The translations under genes were made by a program, and so were the position numbers. 19,920 nt of DNA. Source: Candidatus Babelota bacterium (GTDB lineage Bacteria; Dependentiae; Babeliae; Babeliales; JABCYS01). The stretch is taken from the NCBI GenBank assembly GCA_013290085.1, contig JABCYS010000003.1:1-19920 (forward strand), written 5' to 3'. Under the pieces are notes generated by a model. That model did not search any database, was not told where the DNA came from, and saw nothing but the letters and a program-made list of their open reading frames with translations. Below are positions 6,722-19,710 of the stretch, in pieces (position 1 is the stretch's first letter; each line of letters starts with the position of its first letter).

Positions 6722-8458
6722 TTAAAAAGATTCCAATTCTTTAATAAACGCCTTCTTATCTGCCTGATACAATTCACCACCCCAACGTTTAATCACTATT
6801 TCCCGAACAGCATCGTACAAAATAAAGGTTGGAAGCCCGATGATATTGAATTGGTCTTTTAGCTGCATGATTGTTTTGTCGCTCATGATGAGTTCAAGTT
6901 TTGCCGGAACAAAACGGGCAAGCGCTGTGCGAACATCCGTATCTTTTAATAAGGTTTTATCAATGGCGGTGCAAATGGAGCAGGACGGCGCCCAAAAATC
7001 CATAAAGATATATTTATTTTCCGCCTGAGCCTTTTCTAAAGCTGCTGGGTAGTCAGTGATCCAGAAGGTTTCAGCAGTCTGCCCTTTTTCAGAATGAAGC
7101 GCATAAGCTTGGAAGGCAAAATGAATAGCGCTCGTAAGAAATACAATACCGATAATAATTTTTAGCCGTTGTATAAATTTCGTTTCGTGTTTAGATCCAC
7201 TCAATAAATAATAGATGCCTGCTGCTGCACAGAATACTGCGATGAGCCAGAACAGAAGAGTGGTGGGCAATATGTTCTTTAAATAATAGAACGACATACC
7301 CAGTAATAAAAATCCGAATATTTTTTTTACTTCAATCATCCATGCCCCGGCACGCGGTAGCATGGTAAGAGAGCTGGAGAAAGTTCCGATGAGAAGAAGT
7401 GGGATGCTCAATCCTATGCCAAAGGCAAAGAGAAGGAGAAAGCCAAGAAAGGCATTGCCCAAAGACGCTACAATGCAGAGTACTAGCGCAAGTCCTGGGG
7501 AAAGGCAGGGAGAAGCAACGGTACCACTCAGTGCGCCAAAAATAAAAGAGGAAAGAAAAGAGGTCTTGTGGGCGTGTTTACGCTCCTGTAAAAAAGAAGG
7601 TATACGTATTTCATAAAACCCAAACATAGAGAGCGCCAAATAAACCAGCATGCCGACAATCAAGAGCACTACCAATGGATTGGTTAATAGCATGCCGAAG
7701 ATGGTACCGGACAGGGCGGCAAGAAGGCCAAGAAGGGCAAAGGTTGTAGCGATGCCGATGCTGTAGGAGAACGCATGAAGAAAACTGGTGGCCAGAGATT
7801 TATTTGCTTGTCCTTGCATGATGCCAATGGTGATAGGGATCATCGGGTAGATGCATGGGGTAAAACTCATCAGAAGCCCAAGCAGGGCAATGAGCAGAAT
7901 GCGGACGATAAGAAGATCGGTGCTGCGTATAAGATTTTCAAGATAGTGTGACCAGCTGGTAAGGCTCAGTGGTGTGGAAGGGACAGAGACTTTTTGTTGC
8001 ACTGGTTCGCAGATGGTTTGAGGGAGCGGGGCATCATTTTTTGAGGTGGTGTTAAAACGTAGGGGAATGGATTGCTCTGAAGATGCTCGTTGCGGTGATG
8101 ATTGGTAGGCGAGGTGGAGTGTTGCTTGAGCGATTTCTTTTTCCTGATCTCTTTTTTGGGTGACAATATCTATAAAAAAATCTTTATCGAGTACCGTTTT
8201 ATTGGTTTGAAGTTCGGGAACATATTGATTTACTGGGTCGATACTGGTTTGCCAGGCAACAATATCCACTCCCGGGTGATCAGTTGAGAGTGAGATAAAA
8301 TCATTATAAACAACCTCTGATGGCTCAAGGTTAAATAAGACTCTAGTTTTTATACTGTCAGGGGATTGTGCAAGTAGTTCTGTTTTTATGCGGGCTGCGT
8401 GGAGGGGTATGAGACTGAGGACAAAAAAATAAAAGAGAGAATAGTTTTTTGTGAACAT
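6722..8458 (-). CDS. dsbD: Thiol:disulfide interchange protein DsbD, alpha-domain cysteines missing
   Basis: DsbD carries electrons from cytoplasmic thioredoxin across the inner membrane to periplasmic thiol proteins. The 578-residue product has a signal peptide (1-21), an N-terminal alpha-like domain (about 25-140), a membrane domain (about 180-450) with the two redox cysteines in SFTPCIYPM (Cys202) and SPCLSPG (Cys318), and a C-terminal thioredoxin domain with WAPSCSIC (Cys493, Cys496) and cis-proline GLPTF (543). In the alpha domain, the place where the family has YQGC.....CYPP reads YQSSPQRASSEQSIP (118-132). The two catalytic cysteines are therefore replaced, mainly by serine. The chosen ATG gives the signal peptide. 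Longer in-frame starts would run through the tRNA-Ala gene. It is convergent with hpf. Confidence 0.9.
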   Translation of the reverse strand: MFTKNYSLFYFFVLSLIPLHAARIKTELLAQSPDSIKTRVLFNLEPSEVVYNDFISLSTDHPGVDIVAWQTSIDPVNQYVPELQTNKTVLDKDFFIDIVTQKRDQEKEIAQATLHLAYQSSPQRASSEQSIPLRFNTTSKNDAPLPQTICEPVQQKVSVPSTPLSLTSWSHYLENLIRSTDLLIVRILLIALLGLLMSFTPCIYPMIPITIGIMQGQANKSLATSFLHAFSYSIGIATTFALLGLLAALSGTIFGMLLTNPLVVLLIVGMLVYLALSMFGFYEIRIPSFLQERKHAHKTSFLSSFIFGALSGTVASPCLSPGLALVLCIVASLGNAFLGFLLLFAFGIGLSIPLLLIGTFSSSLTMLPRAGAWMIEVKKIFGFLLLGMSFYYLKNILPTTLLFWLIAVFCAAAGIYYLLSGSKHETKFIQRLKIIIGIVFLTSAIHFAFQAYALHSEKGQTAETFWITDYPAALEKAQAENKYIFMDFWAPSCSICTAIDKTLLKDTDVRTALARFVPAKLELIMSDKTIMQLKDQFNIIGLPTFILYDAVREIVIKRWGGELYQADKKAFIKELESF

Positions 8459-8518
8459 AGGTCTACCAATTGCATGAAGGGGGTTAATCTTTAAATTTAT
8501 TTTGTTAAAGTAGTAATC

Positions 8519-8539
8519 ATTATATAAAGCAAATATATT
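8519..8539. promoter_or_regulatory. Possible divergent promoter elements for dsbD and tRNA-Ala
   Basis: On the minus strand a perfect TATAAT (plus positions 8519-8524) lies about 60 bases before dsbD. On the plus strand TATATT at 8534-8539 lies 12 bases before the tRNA. Neither has a good -35 box, and the stretch is very AT-rich, so this is tentative. Confidence 0.25.
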
Positions 8540-8551
8540 TTTAGTACAGTT

Positions 8552-8627
8552 GGGGCTGTAGCTCAGTTGGTAGAGCGTACGGATGGCATTCGTAAGGTCA
8601 CCGGTTCGACCCCGGTCAGCTCCACCA
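8552..8627 (+). tRNA. tRNA-Ala (anticodon GGC)
   Basis: A 76-base cloverleaf is complete. The acceptor GGGGCTG/CAGCTCC, D arm GCTC...GAGC, anticodon stem TACGG/TCGTA region with loop ATGGCAT (anticodon GGC), and T arm ACCGG-TTCGACC-CCGGT all fit. The 3' CCA is encoded. It reads GCC and GCU alanine codons. The next gene starts 26 bases later. Confidence 0.96.
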
Positions 8628-8653
8628 AATTCTATAGTGATAAAAATAATTTT

Positions 8654-8962
8654 ATGACCAAGAAAAATATTTCCAGCGGAGTGGTACATGATTTACCACC
8701 AGAATTACGGGCGGCCCTTGATTCTGACACAAAAGCGCTCGAGGTGTGGGAAAGCCTTACTCCTCTTGCTCGTAATGAATGGATTTGCTGGGCGACCCAC
8801 GTTAAAACTCCAGAGAAGAAGAAGGAGCATGTTGAAAGAGTCCCTTTGGAACTTAAAGAAGGAAAGCGCCGTCCATGCTGTTGGTACGGGTGCATTCACC
8901 GGAAAGATAAGGCATTAAGCCCTTCACAAAAGTTTGTGCTCAATAGAAGAGCTGGAAAATAA
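8654..8962 (+). CDS. YdeI/OmpD-associated (OmdA)-like small protein
   Basis: The 102-residue protein has the pattern of the OmdA/YdeI C-terminal domain: DLPPELRAALDSD, then a helix ending SLTPLARNEWICWA, then KTPEKKKEHVERVPLELKEGKRRP. A cysteine pair in RRPCCWYGC near the end is also typical. Members have been loosely linked to bacteriocin protection and membrane stress, but the biochemical role is not established. No signal peptide or membrane helix is seen, so it should be cytoplasmic. The ATG at 8654 gives the family N-terminus. Upstream in-frame codons run through tRNA-Ala. No good ribosome binding site is visible, and it may be cotranscribed with the tRNA. A terminator follows at 9014. 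Confidence 0.72.
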   Translation: MTKKNISSGVVHDLPPELRAALDSDTKALEVWESLTPLARNEWICWATHVKTPEKKKEHVERVPLELKEGKRRPCCWYGCIHRKDKALSPSQKFVLNRRAGK

Positions 8963-9013
8963 AAAAACAAAAAGTTTAAAATTTTCCTCCCCCAGGCTTG
9001 CCCTAATTTATGA

Positions 9014-9038
9014 CCCTAGCGAAAAGCTGGGGTTTTTT
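9014..9038 (+). terminator. Rho-independent terminator after the YdeI-like gene
   Basis: CCCTAGC at 9014-9020 pairs with GCTGGGG at 9026-9032 (7 bp, one G-U pair) around the loop GAAAA. TTTTTT follows at 9033-9038. Confidence 0.85.
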
Positions 9039-9052
9039 ATCGCCCCCAATAT

Positions 9053-9081
9053 TTGACAATGTTATAACATTGTATTATACA
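9053..9081 (+). promoter_or_regulatory. Strong promoter for the AbrB-like gene pair
   Basis: A consensus TTGACA at 9053-9058 and TATACA at 9076-9081 are 17 bases apart. The ATG at 9127 lies about 40 bases after the expected start site. The promoter is covered by the tandem operators at 9056-9096. Confidence 0.75.
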
Positions 9082-9096
9082 ATATATAGTCATTGT
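9056..9096. promoter_or_regulatory. Two tandem 18-bp operators, ACAAT-N8-ATTGT
   Basis: ACAATGTTATAACATTGT at 9056-9073 is a perfect 18-bp palindrome overlapping the -35 box. A second site with the same arms, ACAAT at 9079-9083 and ATTGT at 9092-9096, again eight bases apart, covers the -10 box and start site. The two are exactly 23 bp apart, about two helical turns. The facing inner arms (9069-9083) form a further palindrome, ATTGTAT-T-ATACAAT. The layout suggests cooperative repression, most simply by the AbrB-like product of the next gene. Confidence 0.65.
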
Positions 9097-9126
9097 TTAA
9101 TAACCGCTCAAAAGATAAGGGTCCCT

Positions 9127-9435
9127 ATGCTTAAAAAACTAGTCAAATATGGCAATAGTAATGCACTGATACTTGATCGTGCAATTCTGGAATTACTCAA
9201 TATCGGTGAGGGGGCAGTGGTAAAACTGCATACCGATGGAAAATCGCTTATCATAACGCCCGAAAAAATCGCAAACCAAGAAGAGGTTTCTATGACTGGT
9301 ACGCAAATAGTTCAAGAACATTATACGAAAAAGCTAAACAGCATGACTGAAGCTGCGCTTAAAAATGAACAACATGCTGCGTGGGCCCCGGGAACAGAAA
9401 ATCATGTCAAGCTGAAAGAAGTATTTAAAAAATAG
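9127..9435 (+). CDS. AbrB/MazE-type DNA-binding protein (SpoVT-AbrB fold), antitoxin-like
   Basis: The 102-residue product opens with a swapped-hairpin domain: KKLVKYGNSNALILDRAILELLNIGEGAVVKLHTDGKSLIITP (residues 2-45 or so; KYGNS and LDRAILELLNI are the key segments). This is the MazE/AbrB pattern in which an N-terminal dimer binds palindromic DNA. Residues 46-102 form a polar, partly helical tail that in antitoxins usually holds a partner. The ATG at 9127 is chosen because upstream codons cover the promoter and operators. AAGGG at about 9117 serves as ribosome binding site. Its TAG overlaps the GTG of the next gene by one base. Tandem palindromes in its promoter suggest autoregulation. No recognisable MazF-type toxin is adjacent. 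Confidence 0.75.
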   Translation: MLKKLVKYGNSNALILDRAILELLNIGEGAVVKLHTDGKSLIITPEKIANQEEVSMTGTQIVQEHYTKKLNSMTEAALKNEQHAAWAPGTENHVKLKEVFKK

Positions 9436-9674
9436 TGGAAAAATATAAGGATGCGATAAGCAAATTCGATCATCAAGCAATGCTTGCCGAGATCGATGTG
9501 ATGGCTGAAAAATATCAAGGTGACAAGTCATCACCTGAATTTATAAAAGAAGCGGAAGCGATTCAAGCCAAATATTCACAAGGCTTGGCTCCTATGCATA
9601 AAGAAATGGCTGCCGCTGCCAAAGCACTTGGTTGCCCCGATGCTGCATCGCTCGGTTTTCCCGAAGCTTACTAA
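9435..9674 (+). CDS. Small unknown protein coupled to the AbrB-like gene
   Basis: I do not recognise this 79-residue protein. It has no signal peptide or membrane helix. It is charged and largely helical by composition (DAISKFDHQAMLAEIDVMAE, then EFIKEAEAIQAKY) and ends in an alanine-rich segment with AKALGCPDAASLGFPEAY. The GTG start overlaps the TAG of the AbrB-like gene (TAGTG at 9433-9437), so translation is probably coupled and the two products are made together. That layout is common for toxin-antitoxin pairs, but the sequence shows no toxin fold that I know. It could instead be a cofactor or a co-repressor partner. An alternative is that only the AbrB-like protein is functional. Confidence 0.6.
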   Translation: MEKYKDAISKFDHQAMLAEIDVMAEKYQGDKSSPEFIKEAEAIQAKYSQGLAPMHKEMAAAAKALGCPDAASLGFPEAY

Positions 9675-9704
9675 ATTCGAGTCGTTCCTTAAGACACCTT
9701 AGTC

Positions 9705-9739
9705 TAAAAGTTCGAAGTGTGCCGCCTGAGGTCCACCAG
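9705..9739 (+). repeat. Direct repeat copy 1, tRNA-3'-end-like
   Basis: TAAAAGTTCGAAGTGT, then GCCGCCTGAGGTCCACCAG. It matches copy 2 at 10216-10250 at roughly three quarters of positions, in the same orientation. The TTCGAA and CCACCA words recall the T-loop and CCA end of a tRNA, but the stems do not pair. Confidence 0.6.
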
Positions 9740-9752
9740 TTTTTTAGAATAG

Positions 9753-9782
9753 AAAGGGCCTGGAAGAAATTCTGGGCCCTTT
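9753..9782. terminator. Bidirectional terminator between the small gene and the Nudix gene
   Basis: AAAGGGCC at 9753-9760 pairs perfectly with GGCCCTTT at 9775-9782, with a 14-base loop. T-rich sequence follows on both strands (TGTTATTTTT after it; TTCTAAAAAACT reversed before it). It separates the plus-strand pair from the minus-strand Nudix gene. Confidence 0.65.
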
Positions 9783-9790
9783 AGGTGCTG

Positions 9791-10207
9791 TTATTTTTCG
9801 AGATATATAATGTTATTAAAATAAGTTTTAAGTATTTTTTTATGAGGCTTAAAGATCTCTTCAGGTAAGTTGGAAATATCAAAGAAGTTCCATTCATAGC
9901 ATAAATCTGGCTCCATGCACCGAATTTCACCTGAAAATTGCTCCACTAAGAAAGATGCATGAACATAATGTCCGCGATCATCGATATTGTCTGTTATGGC
10001 AATTAATTTAAATCCTATGCCTTCAATGCCAAGTTCTTCCATGAGTTCTCTTTTTGCGCATTCTATTAATGATTCTCCATATTCTAAGTGTCCCCCTGGT
10101 AGGGCCCAGGTACCTTCTCCATAACAATTTTTTCTTTTTCCCAATAAAATGGCGTTGTTTTTTTTGAGAAAGATTTCACAGCCAAGTTTGATGTTTTTAT
10201 TATTCAT
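9791..10207 (-). CDS. Nudix hydrolase
   Basis: The 138-residue protein carries a perfect Nudix box: G-x5-E-x7-RE-L-M-EE-L-G-I in GHLEYGESLIECAKRELMEELGI (residues about 39-61; key residues Gly39, Glu45, Arg53, Glu54, Glu57, Glu58). The preceding WALPGG is typical of MutT/NUDT15-like enzymes, which hydrolyse nucleoside triphosphates or related diphosphates with Mg2+. A possible role is cleaning the nucleotide pool, including imported nucleotides. The substrate cannot be read from the sequence. AGGAA six bases before the ATG supports the start. The gene stands alone on the minus strand between two direct repeats (9705 and 10216), which hints at acquisition or insertion as a unit. Confidence 0.9.
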   Translation of the reverse strand: MNNKNIKLGCEIFLKKNNAILLGKRKNCYGEGTWALPGGHLEYGESLIECAKRELMEELGIEGIGFKLIAITDNIDDRGHYVHASFLVEQFSGEIRCMEPDLCYEWNFFDISNLPEEIFKPHKKILKTYFNNIIYLEK

Positions 10208-10215
10208 TCACATTC

Positions 10216-10250
10216 CTAAAAGATTCGAAGTGTTCCACCTCGACCACCAA
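10216..10250 (+). repeat. Direct repeat copy 2, tRNA-3'-end-like
   Basis: CTAAAAGATTCGAAGTGT, then TCCACCTCGACCACCAA. It shares CTAAAAG, TTCGAAGTGT, CC.CCT and CCACCA with copy 1 at 9705-9739. The two copies flank the Nudix gene. This copy also contains the Nudix ribosome binding site region at its left edge. Confidence 0.6.
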
Positions 10251-10256
10251 AATTAA

Positions 10257-10281
10257 AAACCCCCGGAACTTCCGGGGGTTT
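10257..10281 (-). terminator. Rho-independent terminator of the small secreted-protein gene
   Basis: AAACCCCCGGA at 10257-10267 pairs perfectly with TCCGGGGGTTT at 10271-10281 around a three-base loop. On the minus strand it follows the stop at 10285 by three bases and is followed by TTTTTAATTTT. Confidence 0.88.
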
Positions 10282-10284
10282 GCA

Positions 10285-10650
10285 TTAGTTTCTTTGTGCA
10301 TTTGGTTTTTTGATGTCGCTCGGGGGCTGTTGGTGGAAATGTAACCGCTTAATGGCGTCTTGTTCGTTTTGGTCTTGTGCCGCTTGAAATATACGTTCTA
10401 ACCTGTCCACCATAGACGCACTACAATTAGGCGAAGATAGGCGCGGTTCCTTCGGGAGCATGTTATTTAATTCGTAAAGAGCTTTGTCTGATAGTTCTCC
10501 GTCCAGGACCTGAAGTAGAACGCGTGCGAGTGTTTCAGGGCTTACCGGAGATTTGCGAGGAGAAGGAGATGTATTTCTAGAATCCATCGCATGATTTAAT
10601 ACAAAAAAGGTTAACAAGCTCAAAAATAGAGCTGAATTGAGTAATTTCAT
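10285..10650 (-). CDS. Small secreted protein of unknown function
   Basis: I do not recognise this 121-residue protein. It begins with a clear signal peptide (MKLLNSALFLSLLTFFVLNHA, cleavage near residue 21), so it should be exported to the periplasm or beyond. The mature part is hydrophilic and proline-rich at the start (SPSPRKSPVSPETL). A probable helical segment (LARVLLQVLDGELSDKALYELNNML, about 41-65) follows. There is one cysteine near residue 77 (SPNCSASM) and a glutamine- and asparagine-rich end. AGGAT eight bases before the ATG supports the start. A strong terminator lies directly after the stop, so the gene is a single transcription unit. A host-directed role is possible, but nothing in the sequence proves it. 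Confidence 0.7.
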   Translation of the reverse strand: MKLLNSALFLSLLTFFVLNHAMDSRNTSPSPRKSPVSPETLARVLLQVLDGELSDKALYELNNMLPKEPRLSSPNCSASMVDRLERIFQAAQDQNEQDAIKRLHFHQQPPSDIKKPNAQRN

Positions 10651-10756
10651 AAATATCCTTATTTAAACACCCATAAAAATAAAAAATACAATATGGCTGT
10701 ACTGCAATCGTATTACTAAATGGAAATGAAATGAAAGAGTTTTTTAATAAATGATG

Positions 10757-10812
10757 TTAAATAATAATATTTTTCTTTTCACTATGTCAAACAAATATGA
10801 ATTATTATTTAA
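10757..10812. repeat. AT-only inverted repeat
   Basis: TTAAATAATAAT at 10757-10768 and ATTATTATTTAA at 10801-10812 are perfect complements 32 bases apart. The stretch is almost pure A/T, so its significance is doubtful. It lies 27 bases beyond the stop of the DUF4097-like gene. Confidence 0.3.
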
Positions 10813-10838
10813 AATAAAGGGTTTTTTAATTCTTAAAA

Positions 10839-11627
10839 TTAATACTCAGTAATAGAAATATCACCCTTGGTAGTATTCACGTTGATTGAAGATCCAGATT
10901 GTCCCAGCGTGCCATCAATTTCTCGCTTCATGGCGTCCCAAAACTGATTATTAATCTTTGTTGTGCGGGATTTAAGAGTGACATAAAGATCACAAGAAAT
11001 TTTTCCATCAAGAGTCTTTGCCGCTAATTGCGCATTGGTTTCGTTGGGAAGTGCTAGATCGATATCGCCTTCCAGGTTTTCTAAAGTAAGCGTGGTGGCA
11101 GGTTTTATGCGGCGCATGGTAACATCAATAGTACCCTTTGCCGTTTTTGCGCGTACAGAGTTCGAAGCTTCATTGATAGCGATGGCGCCCTTGTTCGCTA
11201 CGGCAGTTATAGCTCCCTCAACTTGATTTACGGTGATAGAACCATTTACCGTTTTTAGCTTCACGTTAACTCTTTTGGGCACTATGATGGTGTAATCAAC
11301 AACGCTCTTGCTTTTGTTCGGCTGCTTGGTGGTTAATATGGCAGAGTTCTCGGTAAAACGTGCATCAATATCCAACTCCTCAAGATCGGTTTCAGATCCT
11401 TTTTTTACCGCTTCAACTATAATTTTTTCTTGATTCCATGTTTTTATTACAATGTCTCCGTTGGTATTCTCAACCTCCAATGAGCCATGGGGTTCGAATG
11501 AATGATCGTAATTCACTAACTCTTCTTGTGTTTTAGGAAGAACGTATGAGACGATATTCTTGAGTGAGAATTCTGCGTTGATAGACTGAGCTGAACAGAG
11601 AAGACAAAGTAGTATAAAACAATACAT
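10839..11627 (-). CDS. Exported DUF4097-like beta-repeat protein
   Basis: The 262-residue product has a signal peptide (about 1-18, MYCFILLCLLCSAQSINA). A domain of short repeated beta strands follows. The repeated units have the form G-hydrophobic-x-hydrophobic around Asn/Asp-Gly or Lys-Gly turns: ENTNGDIVIKTW, KTVNGSITVNQV, ANKGAIAINEA, TAKGTIDVTM, ENLEGDIDLAL, KTLDGKISCDL and TTKGDISITEY. This is the DUF4097 pattern, a predicted right-handed beta solenoid sometimes called a putative adhesin. Location should be periplasmic or surface. AAGGA six bases before the ATG supports the start. Only 38 bases separate it from the divergent CCA enzyme gene, so its promoter must lie inside that gene. 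A possible TATAAA with TTTGAA is seen at 11672-11699 on the minus strand. Confidence 0.82.
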   Translation of the reverse strand: MYCFILLCLLCSAQSINAEFSLKNIVSYVLPKTQEELVNYDHSFEPHGSLEVENTNGDIVIKTWNQEKIIVEAVKKGSETDLEELDIDARFTENSAILTTKQPNKSKSVVDYTIIVPKRVNVKLKTVNGSITVNQVEGAITAVANKGAIAINEASNSVRAKTAKGTIDVTMRRIKPATTLTLENLEGDIDLALPNETNAQLAAKTLDGKISCDLYVTLKSRTTKINNQFWDAMKREIDGTLGQSGSSINVNTTKGDISITEY

Positions 11628-11665
11628 GATGTTCCTTTATAGTTTTGTAGGACAGGCAGGAGAAG

Positions 11666-13090
11666 ATGAAGTTTATAGCTCTGAACAAAAAAATTCAAAA
11701 AAAAGTGCGAGATATTCTGAGTAAGCAGCCAAAAGTTGCACACATTATTGAGACAATTGACCGCGCTGGTGGAAAAGCGTTGCTTGTTGGTGGTGCAGTA
11801 CGTGACATACTCCTAGGCTTACCCGTGAAAGATCTTGATGTTGAAGTGCATCAACTTACTCTTGCGCAATTAGAATCTATTTTAAAAAAATATGGCGCGG
11901 TGAGTCTGGTTGGCAAATCCTATGGCGTACTTCGTGTCCATGGTCTTGCTATGGACTGGTCCGTGCCGCGAACTGAAGGCGCAGGAAGAAAACCAAAAGT
12001 CTCCATCGATCCTTTTATGAGTATGAAAGAAGCATTTAGGCGTCGTGATCTCACCATCAATGCAATGGGCATAGATCTTGTTTCTTTTGAGCTCATTGAT
12101 CCTTTTAAAGGATTACAAGATTTAGAAAAAGGAATATTGCGAGCCTGTGATGAAAAAAAATTCTTGGAAGATCCGCTACGCTTTTTTCGCGTCATGCAAT
12201 TTATTGCACGCTTCAACATGCACCCTAATAAAAAGTTAAACGATGTGTGCAAAAAAATGTCGGTAAAAAAAGTTTCGGTAGAACGGATAGATGAAGAATT
12301 GAGAAAACTTTTCCTCACATCAAAAAAACCATCACAAGCATTTGTATGGCTAAAAAAAATTGGTCGCCTTCGCGATATCTTTCCAGAACTCTACAACCTT
12401 ATCGGTGTTCAACAAAATCCAGACTGGCATCCAGAAGGCGATGTGTTTGAACACACCATGCAATCAATTGATGCAGCCGCGCAACTTTCTTATGAAAATG
12501 ACGGGCAAAGACTTTTAATTCTCTATGCCGCATTGTGTCATGATTTAGGTAAAGTGGAAGTAACTGAGGAAGAAGAGGGGAAACTGGTAAGCCGAGGACA
12601 TTCAGAAGCGGGTATTCCACTCACTAAAAAATTATTACGTCGCATAACACGCAACAAAGAACTTGTTGATTCAGTGTGCACATTGATAAAACACCACATG
12701 ATGCCCGGACAACTTGCAGCAGCTAACGCCAAGCTTCCTGCTTATAAAAGACTTGCCCGCAAATTAGCGCCGATTACTTTGCAAGAGTTGGCACTTCTGG
12801 CATTAGCTGATAAGCGAGGCCGCAATCCAAAGAAGGGTGCGCCGCTGCGTAAATCGTTTGAAGATATCGATCTTTTCCTGAAAAAAGCTGATGAAGCGCA
12901 GGTGCTCACTGCTGTGGAAAAACCACTGCTACAAGGAAGAGATTTGCTGGATGTGATCAAGCCAGGCCCTCAGATGGGACAGATGCTCATGGAAGCTTAT
13001 GAATTGCAGTTGGAAAAGGGGATACGGGATAAAAAAGTTTTGAAACAACAGATTCTTAAAAAGTTCCGCGTGAGAAAGAAGCGCGACTAA
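11666..13090 (+). CDS. cca: CCA tRNA nucleotidyltransferase with HD domain
   Basis: The 474-residue enzyme adds or repairs the 3' CCA of tRNAs. The nucleotidyltransferase head shows GGAVRDILLG (42-51), the catalytic DLDVE (Asp56, Asp58), RRRDLTINAMG (126-135) and the RNA-binding/neck segments DPLRFFRV (169-176) and ERIDEELRKL (206-215). The C-terminal half has a metal-dependent HD phosphohydrolase domain: EHT at 262-264, CHDLGK at 291-296 and a later HH pair near 341. Proteobacterial Cca enzymes with this domain have phosphatase activity too. AGGAG nine bases before the ATG supports the start. Both tRNAs in this window already encode CCA, so the enzyme would work mainly in repair. Poly(A) polymerase is the alternative, less likely given the DLDVE/RRRD context. 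Confidence 0.88.
   Translation: MKFIALNKKIQKKVRDILSKQPKVAHIIETIDRAGGKALLVGGAVRDILLGLPVKDLDVEVHQLTLAQLESILKKYGAVSLVGKSYGVLRVHGLAMDWSVPRTEGAGRKPKVSIDPFMSMKEAFRRRDLTINAMGIDLVSFELIDPFKGLQDLEKGILRACDEKKFLEDPLRFFRVMQFIARFNMHPNKKLNDVCKKMSVKKVSVERIDEELRKLFLTSKKPSQAFVWLKKIGRLRDIFPELYNLIGVQQNPDWHPEGDVFEHTMQSIDAAAQLSYENDGQRLLILYAALCHDLGKVEVTEEEEGKLVSRGHSEAGIPLTKKLLRRITRNKELVDSVCTLIKHHMMPGQLAAANAKLPAYKRLARKLAPITLQELALLALADKRGRNPKKGAPLRKSFEDIDLFLKKADEAQVLTAVEKPLLQGRDLLDVIKPGPQMGQMLMEAYELQLEKGIRDKKVLKQQILKKFRVRKKRD
11672..11699 (-). promoter_or_regulatory. Candidate promoter of the DUF4097-like gene inside cca
   Basis: On the minus strand TTTGAA (plus 11694-11699) and TATAAA (plus 11672-11677) are 16 bases apart. 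They lie about 45 bases before the start at 11627, within the first codons of the CCA gene. Confidence 0.35.
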
Positions 13091-13110
13091 AAAAGCCCTC
13101 GATAAAAAAA

Positions 13111-13899
13111 TTAAGGTTTTTTAATCTCTACAGCCTGCATAAGACGATCAAGTTCTTGATAATGTTCATGATTGCCCGAGTCAGCCCATTCGTAGAGAGC
13201 TTGTTTCTTATCGCGTTTGATTACAACAGCTATCCAGTGCCCGCCACCGACTCTTAAAACTATGCGGTGTGTACCTTTTTCTCTGAGAGCGCGACATTGC
13301 CCCTTTTTGATATTGTTTACGTCAGATATGACGGTAAAGCTGGCATTGGCAGGAAGAAGAGAAAGAGCTTCTTCTCGTATGGCATAAATACCATGTTCAT
13401 CGAGGTCTACGCCATCGGTACTATATTTAATAGCGGGATCATTGCTTTTTATTTGGTTATTGCGTTCCTTTGCCATCTCTATGATGAGTTGGCGCCATAC
13501 ACCACCCTTATCAATGTGGAGCTGAGTAAAATTGTAATCGGTAAGAAGATGACGGTGCTGCTCATCGCCAAGCGCAATAGCATTTTTTAATGCATGATAA
13601 CCGCAAGTTGCCTCTTTTTGTCCCTGAGCTTGCACTCGTTTGAAGGTAACAATTGCTGGGACAGAGGGAGATGATTTAGCCTTTAGTGCTTTATGAATAC
13701 GTAGAGCGACAAAGGTAAGAGCGGCACCAAGAGCCACACAAAAAACTACCGTGTGTAGGGTAGGTAAGGTGTTGGCGTAAGAAGTGGATTGCGCATCGGT
13801 GGTGTTATTTGGAACCATACCCTGGGTGATCACCGGAGCAGTGACCAAGGAAAAAAGTAATAAACTGTTAAGGATGAAACGATTTTTTGTAATGATCAT
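13111..13899 (-). CDS. Membrane-anchored predicted papain-like cysteine protease, paralog 1
   Basis: The 262-residue protein has a hydrophobic N-terminal segment (about 8-25, signal peptide or anchor) and a second membrane helix (about 47-67). A soluble domain (85-258) follows. Its motifs are ATCGYHALKNAIALG (Cys99), DGVDLDEHGI (163-171), GGGHWIAVVIKRD (His221) and ALYEWADSGN (Asp240). The order Cys, His, Asp and the context fit a papain-like peptidase. C-x2-H-x3-N after the cysteine and HW at the histidine recall Josephin deubiquitinases, but no family could be assigned. All these motifs recur in the gene immediately upstream (13928-14878), with which it shares an operon (28-base gap). GGGGG before the ATG may serve as ribosome binding site. 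It could act on periplasmic or host proteins. Confidence 0.65.
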   Translation of the reverse strand: MIITKNRFILNSLLLFSLVTAPVITQGMVPNNTTDAQSTSYANTLPTLHTVVFCVALGAALTFVALRIHKALKAKSSPSVPAIVTFKRVQAQGQKEATCGYHALKNAIALGDEQHRHLLTDYNFTQLHIDKGGVWRQLIIEMAKERNNQIKSNDPAIKYSTDGVDLDEHGIYAIREEALSLLPANASFTVISDVNNIKKGQCRALREKGTHRIVLRVGGGHWIAVVIKRDKKQALYEWADSGNHEHYQELDRLMQAVEIKKP

Positions 13900-13927
13900 G
13901 AAGAACCCCCATTGAGAGAAATCTTAG

Positions 13928-14878
13928 TTAGGCGATACCTTCTACTACTCCCATGAGGTCTCTGAGCTCAGGGTAATGGTAGTTTATGTTATTAAGTGAG
14001 TCAGCCCATTCATAGGTGACTTGACCCTCATTACGTCTGATTACAACCGCTATCCAGTGACCTGCCGTCACGCCTTTTTTTCTTGTTGGAGCTTGGACTT
14101 GTAAAATTACGCGAACAGTTCCTGGGGCGCGTAGGTTAGCAAGTTTTTGTTGATTAATAAGGTCGGGTTCTTGCAGCTGTTCAGGTCTAGTAACAACTTC
14201 AATAATGTCTCCATCACGTAGCATAGGAAGCGGACTAGTATTATCAGCCCTAATTTCATCAATTATATGTTCAATGCCATGTTGATCTAGATCTGAACCG
14301 TCAACGGGGTGATAAGACGGATCATTTCTGGGTAAGCCTTGTTCTGCAAGTTCGGCATTTCTTCGTTGAGCAAGCTCGATTATCGCCTCTCGCCAGTCAT
14401 TTATAGGGGTGTGTTCATTAAGAAGGTTTCTGTACTCATCATTGCCAAGTGCTACCGCATTTTTTATCGCATGGTAGCCACATGTTTCGTCATCCGCGCG
14501 TTGAGGGTTGACAAGGGTACCTCTTTGTAGAGTTACTACTTCTCTTGTTTGGCGTTTCGTTAATTGCAGCAAGAGGGGTTGATTTCCGTCAGCGCTTGGG
14601 TTTTGAGGTTGTAGCCCATGGCCGGTACCCGGAAAAGCATTTTTTTGGCTTAATGACTCTTTGATGGCATATATGACTAGGTAAAGAATCATGCTGCCAA
14701 AAATAACACGAGGGGCGGTTATTTCGTTCTTTACTTTGTTCCACAGAGCCTTGAGTGAAGACTCCTTTTCCTTTTTCTTCAGAGCAACTTTTTTGACATG
14801 GCTTGGGGTGCCCGGGAGAGTCATAGAGGGCGCCACCAGGGAGAAAAGTAATAAAGTACGTATGATTATGCTGTTCAT
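13928..14878 (-). CDS. Membrane-anchored predicted papain-like cysteine protease, paralog 2
   Basis: This 316-residue relative of the next gene comes first in the pair's transcript. It starts with a signal-like segment (1-21) and a lysine-rich stretch (KKVALKKKEKESSLK). A membrane helix (about 56-73) and a proline/glutamine-rich linker follow. The soluble domain has ETCGYHAIKNAVALG (Cys133), DGSDLDQHGI (193-202), AGHWIAVVIRRN (His274) and VTYEWADSLN (Asp293). The His-to-Asp distance, 19 residues, equals that of paralog 1, while the Cys-to-His part is 19 residues longer (141 against 122), with an insertion around 225-270. Conservation is concentrated at the putative catalytic motifs, which suggests both copies are active. 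Gene duplication is clear. The substrate and final location are unknown. GGGGT before the ATG may be the ribosome binding site. Confidence 0.65.
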   Translation of the reverse strand: MNSIIIRTLLLFSLVAPSMTLPGTPSHVKKVALKKKEKESSLKALWNKVKNEITAPRVIFGSMILYLVIYAIKESLSQKNAFPGTGHGLQPQNPSADGNQPLLLQLTKRQTREVVTLQRGTLVNPQRADDETCGYHAIKNAVALGNDEYRNLLNEHTPINDWREAIIELAQRRNAELAEQGLPRNDPSYHPVDGSDLDQHGIEHIIDEIRADNTSPLPMLRDGDIIEVVTRPEQLQEPDLINQQKLANLRAPGTVRVILQVQAPTRKKGVTAGHWIAVVIRRNEGQVTYEWADSLNNINYHYPELRDLMGVVEGIA

Positions 14879-15191
14879 GTGATTACCCCATTTTGCTTGA
14901 TTAGTAAGCTTAGTATGCCTTTTCTAGGCCCTGAATCAAGTGGTTGCCGTTTCTATTTGTCAAGAATGATCCGGCTGCGCAGCCCCCTTCGTTTCAGCAT
15001 GGGTGCTGATTAATCTTGTATGGTTTTTAAGATTTTGCTTTTTAGACAATTTAATTATCAGCGAGAGCTTGGAACTGTTGAATTTTTAATACTTTTTTGA
15101 GCTATATTTAGGAAAGCTATAGCTTTCCTTTTTTCTAAAAAATGTTAAGTTATAGCTTTCCTTTAAATACAAAAAAAGATAGGTGTTTAAA
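14879..15191. promoter_or_regulatory. Divergent intergenic region with candidate promoters and hairpins
   Basis: This 313-base gap lies between the protease pair (minus) and the HTH-Fic pair (plus). On the minus strand TTGATT and CATACT, 16 bases apart, lie about 35-60 bases before 14878. In the middle there are a perfect GC-rich palindrome GGCTGCGCAGCC at 14973-14984 and a hairpin TCAGCA-tggg-TGCTGA at 14994-15009. On the right a TTGAAT at 15078-15083 and TATATT at 15103-15108 (19 bases apart) lead into the operator at 15110. I see no coding sequence in it. Confidence 0.45.
15110..15164 (+). promoter_or_regulatory. Palindromic operator plus repeat half-site before the HTH-Fic pair
   Basis: AGGAAAGCTATAGCTTTCCT at 15110-15129 is a perfect 20-bp palindrome. 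The segment TATAGCTTTCCTTT occurs there (15118-15131) and again at 15151-15164, 33 bp later. The likely transcription start lies within or just after the palindrome. This is a good candidate site for autoregulation by the HTH protein encoded next. The palindrome followed by TTTTTT could also form a short terminator hairpin. Confidence 0.6.
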
Positions 15192-15665
15192 ATGACTAAT
15201 AGCTTCAAAAAATTAATGCGAGAACAAGTACAAGAAAGGTTAAGTGGTTTTTTAGAACTTTCAAAAAGACCCGCTCCCCCTAAAGGGTGGATAAGAACTA
15301 TAAGAGAGGCGCTGGGTATGTCTGGTTATGCATTAGCAAACCGCCTTGGTTGTAGTAAGGCCAATATTGTAATCCTTGAACGAAATGAGAGGAGAGGGGC
15401 CATTACCCTAGAAACCTTAGATCAGGCTGCTCAAGCAATGGGTTGTAAGCTTGTTTATTGTCTCGTTCCCCAAGAATCGCTTGATGCAGTACTAGAACAA
15501 CAGGCCATGGCTAGAGCAAAAAAGAAGATCGCCTTAATCAATCACTCAATGAAACTTGAAAAACAGGGTCTGAGTCCAAAACAGCTTAAACAGCAAGAGG
15601 CCGACCTTATTAAGGAGCTTTTACAGGGGCCAACAAAAAACCTGTGGATTGATGATGAAGTTTAA
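15192..15665 (+). CDS. Mobile mystery protein A, HTH (Xre-type) regulator
   Basis: This 157-residue protein matches the family named mobile mystery protein A, which is always found next to a Fic-domain mobile mystery protein B. After a charged N-terminal region with SKRPAPPKGWIRTIREALGMS (24-44), a helix-turn-helix domain (about 34-95) is seen: GYALANRLGCSKANIVILERNE, then AITLETLDQAAQAMGCKLVYCLVP. A charged helical tail follows. It is a DNA-binding repressor or antitoxin-like partner. I chose the ATG at 15192, seven bases after AGGTG; a GTG at 15183 is three codons upstream. The 20-bp palindrome at 15110 is the likely operator. The end overlaps the start of the Fic gene. Such pairs are typical of mobile islands. 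Confidence 0.87.
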   Translation: MTNSFKKLMREQVQERLSGFLELSKRPAPPKGWIRTIREALGMSGYALANRLGCSKANIVILERNERRGAITLETLDQAAQAMGCKLVYCLVPQESLDAVLEQQAMARAKKKIALINHSMKLEKQGLSPKQLKQQEADLIKELLQGPTKNLWIDDEV

Positions 15666-16233
15666 TTATCCTGAGGGAGCTACTCCACTAGAACTCGATG
15701 AGTTAGCTGCCTTAATCCCAAGTCATATTACTACTCAAGAAGAATTAAATGCTTGGGAAGAAAGAAATATTCTTGTTGCTCAAGATTGGGCTTTTAAGCA
15801 AAAAGAGCTTTTATCAATAGATTTTATAAAAAGTCTTCATGAACATATGTTTAATGAAACCTGGAAATGGGCAGGGAAATTTCGGACCACAGAAAAAAAC
15901 ATTGGCATCCAGTGGCCGCAAATTCCTACAAAGGTAAAAGAACTTTGCGATAACACCCAATATCAATTAGAGCATGCAACATATCCAAAAGATGAAGTCG
16001 CTCTAAGACTTCACCATGGCCTAACATGGATTCATGCATTTCCAAATGGAAATGGTAGACATGCAAGATTAATTGCCGATCTTTTAATTGTGCAACAGGG
16101 AGGTGCGCGATTTAGCTGGGGGATGCATCAAAATTTACAAAAAGCATCTTCAGTACGAAAACAATACATAGAATCTCTAAAGTTAGCTGATCACGGAAGT
16201 TTTTCGCAGTTGCTTACTTTTGCTAGAACATAA
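15655..16233 (+). CDS. Mobile mystery protein B, Fic-domain protein
   Basis: The 192-residue protein has the family start (FNYPEGATPLELDE) and a Fic core: FIKSLHEHMFNETWKWAGKFR (58-77) and the signature HAFPNGNGRHAR (127-138) with the catalytic His127 and Arg135/Arg138. Fic enzymes transfer AMP or other phosphate-containing groups to target proteins. Two positions differ from the classical HPFx(D/E)GNGRxxR: Ala128 replaces Pro, and Asn131 stands where an acidic, Mg-binding residue is usual. The reaction may therefore differ from AMPylation. Candidate starts are TTG 15649, ATG 15652 and ATG 15655. The last best fits the family N-terminus. The gene overlaps protein A's gene by 11 bases in another frame, so translation is probably coupled. 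It probably forms a toxin-antitoxin-like module with it. Confidence 0.88.
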   Translation: MKFNYPEGATPLELDELAALIPSHITTQEELNAWEERNILVAQDWAFKQKELLSIDFIKSLHEHMFNETWKWAGKFRTTEKNIGIQWPQIPTKVKELCDNTQYQLEHATYPKDEVALRLHHGLTWIHAFPNGNGRHARLIADLLIVQQGGARFSWGMHQNLQKASSVRKQYIESLKLADHGSFSQLLTFART

Positions 16234-16384
16234 AATCACATGTCTTTTTATGACAAGAATATGCGGTCTAGGGGCAGGATCGTTCTAAAACATTGTCTTC
16301 TCAGCACGCAATAGACTAGAGTTAACAGCAACTATGCGATACAATGCTTCAGCATATTTTTCTGAAAAAGTGAAAGGTTTTAGT

Positions 16385-17074
16385 ATGAATAAAATATTTC
16401 TAGGCAATGCTCTTTGGCAACTTATAATGCTGGCAGACCCGGTAAGTAAATTAGTACTTTTGACGCTGCTTGGCATGTCAATTACCTGTTGGACAATCTT
16501 TTTCTATAAACTCATTTTACTGCGGGTAAAGCGAGAACAAATGCGCCAAGCAATTAGTGCTATAAAAACGATCCCTGATTTACACGGCCTGGTTAATCTT
16601 GCCACTGAAATTTCAAAAACATTGCCCGGCTATTTCCTCTCACAAAACCTCGCATTCCTAAAAGGCCTCGTTCAACGCCGCGAACAAGACCAATCTTATG
16701 TTGCCGTACGCGAATGGGAGGGAGTCCAAGGGTATATCAATCAAACGTTCGATGAACTAGTACTCCAAGAAGAACGTTATATGCCCATCCTCTATTCCAG
16801 TGCAGGAGTTGCTACATTGATAGGTCTTTTTGGTACTGTTTGGGGACTTATTCATGCATTTGTTCGCATTGGTGAATTTCAGTCGGCTGACATAGCAACC
16901 GTAGCTCCCGGTATTGCCGAAGCCTTGATCACCACGCTTGCCGGGTTGGTAGTTGCCATACCCGCGTTCCTGATGTTCCACTATCTGACAGTGCAAAACC
17001 GCAAACTCGAATACCAACTTTCTGTGTTTGCAGATCGCTATACCTGGATCATTAAACAACTTTTTATACAGTAG
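16385..17074 (+). CDS. tolQ: TolQ proton channel subunit (TolQ/ExbB family)
   Basis: TolQ with TolR uses the proton motive force to energise TolA and keep the outer membrane attached during division. The 229-residue product has the usual length and three membrane helices: about 20-42, 132-157 and 168-192. The last two are joined by the conserved GLFGTVWGLIHAF (about 147-159) and ATVAPGIAEALITTLAGLVVAIPA motifs of the family. The ATG at 16385 follows AAAGG at 16373-16377 and gives the normal N-terminus. The frame is open further upstream without family support. It starts the tolQRAB operon; tolR follows after seven bases. ExbB is excluded by the order with tolB. Confidence 0.93.
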   Translation: MNKIFLGNALWQLIMLADPVSKLVLLTLLGMSITCWTIFFYKLILLRVKREQMRQAISAIKTIPDLHGLVNLATEISKTLPGYFLSQNLAFLKGLVQRREQDQSYVAVREWEGVQGYINQTFDELVLQEERYMPILYSSAGVATLIGLFGTVWGLIHAFVRIGEFQSADIATVAPGIAEALITTLAGLVVAIPAFLMFHYLTVQNRKLEYQLSVFADRYTWIIKQLFIQ

Positions 17075-17081
17075 GGGTTTT

Positions 17082-17516
17082 ATGAAGCTATCGCCACGAC
17101 GACGTCCTCGCCACACAACATTACCTGAAGTAAACGTTATCCCCCTGATTGACGTTTCATTGATGTTGCTGGTGGTATTTATGGTGACAACACCCATGTT
17201 GCAGCATGGGATAAAAGTTGAGTTGCCCCAAGGACAATCACAAGAGACAAAAGATGCGAAACAAGACTTAGTGGTTTATATCGAGAAGGCGGCAGACTCC
17301 AAATCTAAGGAAAAACTTTATTTAAATGATACCGCAATGACACAAGATGCTTTGCTGAGTAAATTAAAAAGTAAGACACAAGGCCAGACAGATAAAACAG
17401 TTTTTGTAAAAGCTGATCGCGCAGTAAATTATGGCAAGGTCATTGAAATAGTTGATCAAATTAAGTGTGTCGGAGGTATTAAGTATGTTGCTCTGGCAAC
17501 GCATCGGGTGGCCTAA
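17082..17516 (+). CDS. tolR: TolR (TolR/ExbD family)
   Basis: The 144-residue protein has a short basic N-terminus (SPRRRPRH), the single membrane helix with the signature LPEVNVIPLIDVSLMLLVVF (14-33) and a periplasmic domain ending in VFVKADRAVNYGKVIEIVDQIK. Asp24 corresponds to the essential proton-carrying aspartate of TolR. It partners TolQ in the inner membrane and binds peptidoglycan and TolA. AGGGGT seven bases before the ATG supports the start. Its last 32 bases overlap the start of the next gene, so the three gene products are coupled. Confidence 0.93.
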   Translation: MKLSPRRRPRHTTLPEVNVIPLIDVSLMLLVVFMVTTPMLQHGIKVELPQGQSQETKDAKQDLVVYIEKAADSKSKEKLYLNDTAMTQDALLSKLKSKTQGQTDKTVFVKADRAVNYGKVIEIVDQIKCVGGIKYVALATHRVA

Positions 17517-18285
17517 ACGCTATACCTTTCTATCCAAGCTCCTACTCCTGAGTGCACTCGGGCATAGCACTTTGCTTTTTTTTATCCTGTTTTTTTATAA
17601 AGGTGAAAACTTTACCTACTCCCTCAACTTAGATGCGCAAGATATGACCGTTCTCTTTTTACCATTTCAAAAAACAGTTGCTACACAAAAAATAGTTACT
17701 ACAGCCCAAGTAGCCGGAAATGCCAAGAGTGGCTCCTCGCGCTTAAAGGTAATTAACTCTTCGAATAAAAGTGCGAAAAATAAAAATACAAAAACAAAAA
17801 ATAAGAACGCGCTCGAAAAAGCATTGGCAAAAACTCCTGAAACAGCTCTTGCTCAAGCCGAAGAAAAAAAAGGAAAAAATAAGAAGGCGGATGTTGCAAA
17901 AAAAATTGATGAGCCAAAATCAGAAGAAAAAATTGTTGCACAACAAGAACCGGCGCAACCAAAAGAAGAGACAATAAAACCAGAAGTAGTTGACCTCTTT
18001 GATGAAGAAGCAGTGTATGTAGGCCAGCAAGATCTGAATGCGTTAGAGCTCCGGCAAGAGCTGCTGCAAGAGATAGAGCAAGCATGGCGTCCTCCCGTTG
18101 GACTTGCTACGAATAAAATATGCAAAGTTCGTGTTTTAGTTGATTGGAAAGGGAAGGCAGAAGATATTGTTTTTGAAGAATCTTCTCAGATAGTTGCATT
18201 TGATGCCTCGGTGCGTCATGCATTACTTACTATGCAGTTCCCTAAAAGTTCCTACGGCAAAGAATTAATTCTCCCCTTTCATTGA
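17485..18285 (+). CDS. tolA: TolA-like protein with TonB/TolA C-terminal domain
   Basis: The 266-residue protein has a single N-terminal membrane helix (about 15-40, LSKLLLLSALGHSTLLFFIL). A long lysine-, glutamate- and alanine-rich middle region (about 88-175) follows, like TolA's extended helical or disordered spacer. The C-terminal domain (about 190-266) begins QELLQEIEQAWRPPVG and includes CKVRVLVDWKGKAEDIVFEESS, the TolA/TonB C-terminal fold. It spans the periplasm to link the TolQR motor to the outer membrane. It is shorter than E. coli TolA (421 residues). GGAGG at 17472-17476 lies nine bases before the ATG, inside tolR. A TonB homologue is the alternative, but the position between tolR and tolB favours TolA. 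Confidence 0.88.
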   Translation: MLLWQRIGWPKRYTFLSKLLLLSALGHSTLLFFILFFYKGENFTYSLNLDAQDMTVLFLPFQKTVATQKIVTTAQVAGNAKSGSSRLKVINSSNKSAKNKNTKTKNKNALEKALAKTPETALAQAEEKKGKNKKADVAKKIDEPKSEEKIVAQQEPAQPKEETIKPEVVDLFDEEAVYVGQQDLNALELRQELLQEIEQAWRPPVGLATNKICKVRVLVDWKGKAEDIVFEESSQIVAFDASVRHALLTMQFPKSSYGKELILPFH

Positions 18286-18297
18286 AAGACATCATTT

Positions 18298-19626
18298 ATG
18301 AAAAAAATATTTTGTACGTTAGCGCTGTGCGTAACGCTCGCTGTTCACGCTGTTGAACAGGTTGCTTTGGAGGAAGTAAATGCTCGTCAATTTAAAAAAA
18401 TGTCTATCCTTATCGGTCTGCTCAAAGCAGATAAAGATGCAACAGTCGTAAGTGAGCAAGTAAAAAAAGATCTTGAATTTACCGGGCAGTTTTCTGTCGA
18501 TATCGAAACAGTTGATGCATTATCTTCAAAAAATCAGGTTCGTCAGTGGTTTGAAAAAGGATATCCGCTGGTAGTGTACCTACAGCCGTCTTCTTCTGGC
18601 TATGAATGGCATTTATATGACACCACAACGGCCAACATGATTAATGGCAAGAAGGTAGCTAAGTTAGGATCGAGTAAGCGCGGCTGGGCGCATGCGCTTG
18701 CTGATGAGCTTTGGCCAGCTCTGACAGGGACACCTGGTTTTTTTTCCACCAAGGTTGTGTATGGCAAAGAAGTGTGTCGTCGTGGAAGAAACTGTAAAAA
18801 ATATATTTACATCAGAGACGCTACCGATACTGAAGGTGGTTCAGAAGAGTTGCTGGTAGCAAGTCCAACCATTAGTGTTTCTCCTCGCTGGAACCGTGAC
18901 CTGCAAAATCCGATGGTTCTTTATTCTGAATATACAAAAACGAATGTGCGTCTTATCGCGGTCAACATGAAGGGAAAGCGCAAAGTAGTATCTGATTTTG
19001 AAGGGGTAAACATGCAAGTTTCCTACTCTCCAGAAGGTAAGGAGGTAGTGTATTGCCTTTCACGAGCGCCCCATGCTTCACACAGGCCTCATCTAACCAG
19101 TCAGTTGTACCATTATTTTTTTGACCCCTATTCTCAGCAAGCATGCTTTAAACGATTAACTTCAAATGCCGGGAATAACTTTGCTCCGTGCTGGGGGCCA
19201 GACAATACCCTGTTTTTTGCCTCAGATGCTTCAAAAAATGGGCAGCCCAACATCTGCTGGTATGATTTTAAAAATAAAAAGACAGCGTGGCTTACCCAGG
19301 ATGGTTATGCTACAAGCCCGAGCTATAATCCGTCTTCCAATAAGCTGGTGTATACCAAGATGGTCAACAAAATAATGCAGCTTTTTGAGTTTGATGTAAC
19401 AACTCAGCAGCACCGTCAATTAACCTCTGACCCGAGCAATAAGGATGATTGCAGCTGGTCTCCCTGTGGGAACCTTATTTCCTACTCTGCTGAGGTCAAA
19501 GGCAAAAGCCGGCTGGCCGTCTTTAATTTGCTGACCAAAGAACAGCTTTTTATAACCTCAGAAGGGGAGGACTGCAGTTACCCGTCCTGGTCCCCTAAAT
19601 ATGCTCAAATGCCGGTGATAGCCTGA
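18298..19626 (+). CDS. tolB: TolB periplasmic beta-propeller protein
   Basis: The 442-residue product has a signal peptide (MKKIFCTLALCVTLAVHA, about 1-18). An N-terminal alpha/beta domain (about 20-150) with LLKADKDATVVSEQVKKDLE and the WPALTGTPGFFSTKVVYG junction follows. A six-bladed beta-propeller of PD40 repeats makes up the rest: SVSPRWNRD, VSYSPEGKEVVYC, FAPCWGPDNTLFFASD, SPSYNPSSNKLVYT, DCSWSPCGNLISYS and SYPSWSPK. TolB binds Pal and TolA in the periplasm. An unusual number of cysteines (several in the propeller) is notable, and DsbD in this window may serve their redox state. Twelve bases separate it from tolA. pal, normally next, is not seen; a new promoter and another gene follow. 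Confidence 0.93.
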   Translation: MKKIFCTLALCVTLAVHAVEQVALEEVNARQFKKMSILIGLLKADKDATVVSEQVKKDLEFTGQFSVDIETVDALSSKNQVRQWFEKGYPLVVYLQPSSSGYEWHLYDTTTANMINGKKVAKLGSSKRGWAHALADELWPALTGTPGFFSTKVVYGKEVCRRGRNCKKYIYIRDATDTEGGSEELLVASPTISVSPRWNRDLQNPMVLYSEYTKTNVRLIAVNMKGKRKVVSDFEGVNMQVSYSPEGKEVVYCLSRAPHASHRPHLTSQLYHYFFDPYSQQACFKRLTSNAGNNFAPCWGPDNTLFFASDASKNGQPNICWYDFKNKKTAWLTQDGYATSPSYNPSSNKLVYTKMVNKIMQLFEFDVTTQQHRQLTSDPSNKDDCSWSPCGNLISYSAEVKGKSRLAVFNLLTKEQLFITSEGEDCSYPSWSPKYAQMPVIA

Positions 19627-19710
19627 ATAGGCTCAGCCAGGCTCTAATATCTCTTTAAAATCCCCCCTATAAAAGCGGTCCCAGTCGCTATCTGGACAGC
19701 CTTTGACCTT

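Follow-up and report, generated by a model that had tools for sequence, protein, structure and literature searches.

The CE clan is described in excerpts of PMC7391069 as a circularly permuted form of the papain fold. The available part of a review of papain-like enzymes (PMC10318531) sets apart families with a permuted helix, including deubiquitinases (DUBs) and deSUMOylases; its main text, to that extent, contains neither the word Dependentiae nor Babel. Circularly permuted Ulp1-like (C48) peptidases of Babela massiliensis were reported in 2015 by Pagnier et al. (PMC4378268), and in the available part of that report these proteins are fused to AAA ATPases and called unique to that species. 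Here we analysed a stretch of 19,920 nucleotides (the window; contig JABCYS010000003.1, positions 1 to 19,920) from Candidatus Babelota bacterium, a relative of intracellular parasites of protists in the Dependentiae/Babelota phylum that probably lives inside protists itself. The ribosomal protein S2 encoded in the window came closest, at 58%, to a named Candidatus Dependentiae genome, with 79 other loci at 40-51%. The window carries two adjacent genes, A and B, for proteins with candidate catalytic Cys, His and Asp residues. Sequence comparisons and structure models make it fairly probable that A and B are membrane-anchored, CE-clan-related (Ulp1/C48-type) cysteine isopeptidases that carry the Cys helix in the front part of their domain. 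What the analysis shows outright is the conservation, the residue order, the CE-like nature of the His-Asp half, the fold of the models and the breadth of occurrence in the phylum.

The two genes, their domains and their candidate catalytic residues lie at these positions of the window:
13111-13899, minus strand: gene A, 262 amino acids (aa), with a signal-like segment, a membrane helix and a predicted permuted CE-like Cys-His-Asp domain (open reading frame (ORF) call, BLASTP, hydropathy, model)
13928-14878, minus strand: gene B, 316 aa, with the same predicted architecture as A and upstream of it (ORF call, BLASTP, hydropathy, model)
13126..13653, minus strand: predicted catalytic domain of A, residues 83-258 (BLASTP, motifs, model)
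13940..14536, minus strand: predicted catalytic domain of B, residues 115-313 (BLASTP, motifs, model)
13603..13605, minus strand: Cys99 of A, candidate nucleophile, with which a predicted helix opens; 70/72 in the family
13237..13239, minus strand: candidate His221 of A, followed by Trp at the aromatic gatekeeper position (conservation, model; gatekeeper rule from excerpts of PMC7391069)
13180..13182, minus strand: candidate Asp240 of A, followed by Ser (conservation, model)
14480..14482, minus strand: candidate nucleophile Cys133 of B (motif, model)
14057..14059, minus strand: candidate His274 of B, followed by Trp (motif, model)
14000..14002, minus strand: candidate Asp293 of B, followed by Ser (motif, model)

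The original prediction, made from the letters of the window, had described two adjacent paralogs with shared Cys-His-Asp islands. We confirmed that both ORFs are real and lie on the minus strand, and that A and B are identical at 79 of 208 residues (38%, E = 1e-35, BLASTP). A gap of 28 bases separates the upstream gene B from A, and the two probably form one operon. Because a G-rich, ribosome-site-like stretch lies a few bases before each start codon, the full-length starts, including the signal-like segment, are supported; the protein database entry for B (P0001) has 298 aa and starts at a later Met. The motifs C-x2-H-x3-N, HW, DG.DLD.HGI and YEWADS are common to both proteins. The residue order is Gln-Cys-His-Asp, as in papain, and the candidate triads are C99/H221/D240 in A and C133/H274/D293 in B, with the predicted spacing of 19 residues from His to Asp in each.

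Matches to a family profile (A4, E <= 0.001) were found in 69 of 101 genomes of the phylum, compared to 0 of 1,191 in three other phyla, a contrast that is somewhat overstated as the profiles were built partly from the same 101 genomes. The three phyla were those of a Mariprofundaceae (0/398), a Saprospiraceae (0/395) and a Clostridium genome (0/398), with Chlamydiota and Patescibacteria left out; five further single genomes had no match (0/5). Earlier profile rounds on the 101 genomes had matched 33 (A2, E <= 1) and 69 (A3, E <= 0.01). Three loci from profile A2 (L103, L104 and L105) had no motif and were dropped as noise, L105 resembling a sigma factor, and one locus (L106) ends at a contig edge. 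Protein searches rest on shared words and so returned few relatives (one and three proteins in the first two, the window's own included). P0003 was the first relative from outside the window, and six others followed; their sources annotate two of the six as hypothetical proteins from a Candidatus Babeliales or Dependentiae bacterium. No relative emerged when GTDB and IMG/VR contigs were scanned with the patterns A1 and A2, and the family had no match in phage DNA. In a maximum-likelihood tree of 51 cores, with 11 of 48 inner branches well supported, A, B and P0003 formed one group (support 100/99). A lay nearer P0003 than B did (96/58), so the A/B duplication may predate the split from the P0003 lineage.

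The candidate catalytic residues were conserved across this family. We tallied distinct matches of more than 10 bits, a sample that leans towards conserved rows, and for Cys, Gln and His used the sequences with a letter at that position as denominator. Cys was present in 70/72, with Ser in the other two, and His in 88/88; homologs thus keep the cysteine and histidine on which the original prediction had staked its case. Around the Cys, Gln stands at -5 in 64/68 (present in A; in B the Gln is two residues further off), Gly follows directly in 64/74 and Asn is at +7 in 67/72. The residue after His was Trp (81/90) or Tyr (6/90). Asp (81/90) and Asn (9/90) together accounted for 90/90 at the Asp position, which Ser followed in 87/90. 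Cys and His are 104 to 420 residues apart, and His and Asp 19-21 residues apart in 65/74. A chance resemblance of A and B is excluded because the Cys, His, aromatic residue, Asp/Asn and Ser are kept across the phylum family. The predicted DLD.HGI island is indeed shared by A and B, but among 28 aligned rows its full form occurs otherwise only in P0003, and its His is therefore unlikely to be catalytic.

We observed that the first His came after the first Cys in 72/72 distinct ORFs measured (3 duplicates and 4 unmeasured frames set aside). In the 68 ORF records with both halves, the order was C-H in 67 and C-H-H-C in one. The claim on order rests on these tallies and not on one set of Cys-His pairings, which admitted only His-after-Cys pairs. 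The C-H-H-C record (L142; genome G005, minus strand, 3-5015) holds three tandem permuted C-H units and then an AAA domain; units 2 and 3 lack the Cys, and unit 3 also lacks the His.

Pfam, NCBIfam and PHROGs gave no useful match for A and B, and neither had a Pfam match above cut-off to C48 (PF02902) or Josephin (PF02099). We compared profiles built from 28-70 relatives with PDB sequences. The 28-row profile placed CidB (7fiu) first (5.5e-6) and SENP8 next (6.5e-4), followed by a type III effector, NopD and RickCE at 0.011-0.015. CidB and SENP8 aligned in two pieces, in which the profile order was reversed relative to the chain order; a further whole-core profile matched CidB at 6.6e-7, also in two pieces with swapped order. 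The His-Asp half alone matched CidB (6.6e-8) and RickCE (9.6e-6) at ranks 1 and 2 of 16 matches, with 6gzu third at 0.22. Judged by these profiles, the CE kinship of the His-Asp half is firm.

Pfam searches of 51 members (E <= 1; best 7.1e-5) matched C48 in nine, YopJ, ElaD/SseL and RickCE in two each, and Josephin in one (0.12). Unrelated families beat RickCE and YopJ in single members, for example Peptidase_M3_N at 0.0013, and we took such matches as chance. C48 exceeded the Pfam cut-off in 2 of the 101 genomes, G027 (L201) and G081 (L202, L208). L201 matches the whole C48 profile in canonical order, and the canonical-order C48 proteins of these two genomes had no significant match to the half profiles of the family. 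The six other C48 matches in the 101 genomes fell on family members, mostly on the His-Asp half and below cut-off.

The original prediction had pointed to Josephin-type DUBs, on the strength of shared motifs. The domain would then be a CA-clan, Josephin-like DUB with an ancestral Cys-His-Asp/Asn order and CE-like motifs acquired by convergence. A and B do carry the Josephin order Cys-His-Asn/Asp, the C-x2-H-x3-N motif and an aromatic residue directly behind the His, and one family member (G095:C7) gives a weak match to the Josephin profile (E 0.019). They also carry marks of CE/C48 proteases, namely the HW motif with Asp-Ser about 17-21 residues on and, a few residues before Cys-Gly, the Gln. 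The canonical CE order His-Asp-Gln-Cys is absent from both; the permuted Ulp1-like order, as in the B. massiliensis family, is present, with a Cys half that is weak when taken alone. The profiles spoke against Josephin as nearest kind, with one member matched compared to nine for C48, no Josephin chain among PDB profile matches up to E 10 and no PF02099 match above cut-off in the 101 phylum genomes. CidB and RickCE are among those PDB matches.

The predicted structures agree with a papain-like fold. The AlphaFold2 model of the A core (51-row alignment; predicted local distance difference test (pLDDT) 92.6, predicted template modelling score (pTM) 0.87) has a strand at 17-23, a helix at 33-45 that opens with the Cys, more helices, strands at 143-151, 155-163 (with the His at the beginning) and 167-173 (followed at once by the Asp), and a helix at 182-192. 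The B core (49 rows; pLDDT 85.2, pTM 0.82) has the same order of elements. In both models the Cys opens a helix, the His lies at or near a strand start and the Asp follows the next strand, which is the papain arrangement; as far as the order of elements can show, the models agree with the prediction.

Foldseek found nothing at E <= 0.001 for either model. Its best matches, which were not significant, included OtDUB and CidB for A, and HopZ1a (top) and RavZ for B; a viral fold library gave weak matches only. Z values from VIA-align were low, and we treat differences below 1 as ties. For A, these were PcJOS 6.1 (135 residues spanning 20-189, root-mean-square deviation (rmsd) 4.5), AvrPphB 5.6 and USPL1 5.5, then XopD 5.4 (107 residues, rmsd 3.8) and OtDUB 5.2. 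For B, they were XopD 6.2 (116 residues, rmsd 3.6), staphopain C 5.5, PcJOS 5.4, NopD 5.1 and SENP8 5.0. In the VIA-align lists, the alignments of CE-type rows begin no earlier than model residue 53, pox I7L (9lik, from 26) being the sole exception, whereas those of papain-order rows (Josephin, OTU, USP, papain, ATG4) begin at residue 5-22. We took as CE-type, partly by presumed labels, XopD, OtDUB, RickCE, CidB, NopD, SENP8, SseL, SdeA, RavZ, pS273R and the YopJ-type structures. CidB aligns with the later part of each model and no more (78-195 in A, 79-216 in B). CE-type rows thus begin behind the N-terminal Cys helix, as expected for a Cys helix moved to the front. The family would be a CE-like domain in unpermuted order.

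Some of these results weigh against a CE origin. By structure alone the Josephin PcJOS ties with the CE proteases, having the best Z for A and the third for B. The Cys pieces of the profile matches are not significant by themselves (i-Evalue 42 for CidB, 0.24 for SENP8). A search with the Cys half alone matched an Ulp1-like protease at 0.16, the Cys being in register, yet ferritins scored at an equal level, and the CE kinship of this half is only suggestive at the level of sequence. The lead of PcJOS for A falls within the range of ties, and given the profile results we consider a Josephin-like DUB unlikely.

Other domains accompany the family in some relatives. Among 19 long relatives, which were hand-chosen and not random, AAA fusions occurred in eight (six in G005, others in G090 and G077), ankyrin fusions in three and RanBP2-type zinc fingers in two, both from genome G043. 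We found no AAA ATPase in A or B by sequence or Pfam. The fingers of the G043 relatives read W-x-C-x2-C-T-F/L-x-N, and the T-F form of RanBP2-type fingers often binds ubiquitin. At loci L087 and L166 of G043, several family genes lie together, two of them with RanBP2-type fingers before the protease domain. One frame in genome G059 (L170) has the His-Asp half and a C-terminal end that matches Pfam 'Cytotoxic' (3.7e-5).

By predicted activity, A and B are most likely cysteine isopeptidases for a Gly-Gly modifier. According to excerpts of PMC7391069, Gly75 of ubiquitin is contacted in DUBs by the aromatic residue that follows His, and this residue restricts the site. Its presence in the sequences of A and B suggests removal of ubiquitin-like proteins. 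The same excerpts report that one CE protein with HW, lpg1949, is an acetyltransferase, so activity cannot be read off HW. A and B might likewise be permuted CE-clan acetyltransferases of YopJ-like kind and not peptidases. The CE clan includes acetyltransferases, Acetyltransf_14 weakly matches 2 of the 51 members (best 0.012), and YopJ-type structures appear, low, in the VIA-align lists, HopZ1a being the non-significant Foldseek top for B. The two significant sequence matches, however, are RickCE and CidB, the latter solved as a DUB domain, and two relatives have zinc fingers of an often ubiquitin-binding kind; we regard an acetyltransferase as very unlikely. LupA/lpg1148 was considered as a precedent for Cys before His and rejected, since one passage of PMC7391069 gives C29A but a legend gives C252A with the aromatic W184, which makes it canonical. 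The original prediction of a membrane-anchored, papain-like Cys-His-Asp hydrolase of DUB or ubiquitin-like-protease kind is supported by our sequence comparisons and models.

We infer the descent of A and B by permutation, as well as their activity, modifier, membrane side and host target, and propose the following mechanism. Cys99 or Cys133, activated by His221 and Asp240 or by His274 and Asp293, would attack the bond that follows the terminal Gly-Gly of a modifier such as ubiquitin or SUMO. The Trp after His would restrict the site to Gly-Gly tails. Two N-terminal hydrophobic segments would anchor the enzyme in a membrane, either bacterial or derived from the host, from which it could strip modifiers from nearby host proteins.

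These segments, called by a Kyte-Doolittle window only, lie before the domain in each protein, in line with the predicted signal-like segment and membrane helix:
13822..13878, minus strand: N-terminal hydrophobic (signal-like) segment of A, residues 8-26 (crude hydropathy)
13702..13758, minus strand: second hydrophobic segment (predicted membrane helix) of A, residues 48-66 (crude hydropathy)
14816..14872, minus strand: N-terminal hydrophobic segment of B, residues 3-21 (crude hydropathy)
14666..14722, minus strand: second hydrophobic segment of B, residues 53-71 (crude hydropathy)

Crude hydropathy, applied to 71 ORFs of the family of which some are cut by locus ends, showed an N-terminal hydrophobic segment in 31 and a second segment before the domain in 5, A and B among them. 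Because the second segment occurs in 5/71 only, the window's form of anchoring belongs to a minority of the family. The positive residues after the helix of A suggest that the domain lies in the bacterial interior. Together with the signal-like segment and membrane helix, such charges could fit a protease of the bacterium's own envelope that is not aimed at host ubiquitin-like proteins. Against such an envelope role stand the many copies in G005 (19 match stretches, profile A4), the ankyrin and RanBP2-type finger fusions in relatives and the conserved aromatic gatekeeper, and it seems improbable to us. A place in a membrane that faces the host would fit an enzyme resembling Cdu1/ChlaDub1 of Chlamydia, a bacterial DUB anchored in the inclusion membrane according to excerpts of PMC5370187.

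Other genes of the window were also recorded. A perfect 20-base palindrome followed by a T-run (15110-15129), terminator-like, lies between the start of gene B and a helix-turn-helix (HTH) gene. The HTH gene and an overlapping Fic/DOC-domain gene (15183-16233, plus strand; PF01381, PF02661) form what we take to resemble a 'mobile mystery' or toxin-antitoxin-type pair. A pair of TLC ATP/ADP carrier genes stands in tandem at 2-466 and 593-2038 (plus strand); the window edge probably truncates the first, which matches the end of the profile only. At 10839-11627 (minus strand) lies a gene for a DUF4097 protein whose start is signal-like, and at 10285-10650 (minus strand) one for a small signal-like protein with no Pfam match.

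The original prediction had suggested a possible new family. The permutation itself is already known from the 2015 report on B. massiliensis; new here are the stand-alone membrane-anchored forms, the phylum spread, the nearest kin CidB and RickCE, the fold models and the further fusions. We found no later paper on these proteins among open PMC papers, and the main text of a 2025 Babelota survey (PMC12172432) does not contain ubiquitin, Ulp1, protease, peptidase or effector. The family is unnamed in Pfam, NCBIfam and PHROGs. In the 2015 report the domain counted as unique to a single amoeba parasite; if its range is as wide as found here, it would be a host-interaction enzyme shared within a phylum that is large and mostly uncultured. 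The relation between CE-clan and papain-type proteases can be tested on this naturally occurring family, which is also a source of divergent candidate DUBs. It is conceivable, though we lean against it, that Dependentiae/Babelota use a large radiation of CE-like isopeptidases in papain order (stand-alone membrane-anchored, AAA-, ankyrin- and zinc-finger-fused) as their main arsenal for editing ubiquitin and ubiquitin-like proteins, and that the domain forms a natural link from clan CA to clan CE, its permutation repeated or reversible.

Compared to known systems, the family is closest in sequence to the DUB domain of CidB from Wolbachia wMel (PDB 7fiu). The alignments show a shared HW, 19-residue His-Asp spacing, ADSL, Gln and Cys-Gly motif; His and Asp precede the Cys in CidB, whereas the Cys comes first in the family. 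RickCE (5ham), OtDUB (6ups), XopD and SENP8/NEDP1 share CE-clan motifs, in particular the part with His and Asp. In SENP8 the alignment places the Cys behind the His-Asp pair, at the domain's far end, and RickCE, OtDUB and XopD have it there as well. Josephin DUBs (PcJOS, 9fn4) differ in having almost no profile match to the family. Cdu1/ChlaDub1 is, like A and B by prediction, membrane-anchored, and differs from them in its canonical CE order. The B. massiliensis family, as described in excerpts of PMC4378268, shares the permuted Ulp1-like domain, signal peptides, phylum and paralogous expansion with A and B; it is AAA-fused there, whereas A and B stand alone, are predicted to be membrane-anchored and belong to a family with matches across most of the phylum genomes analysed.
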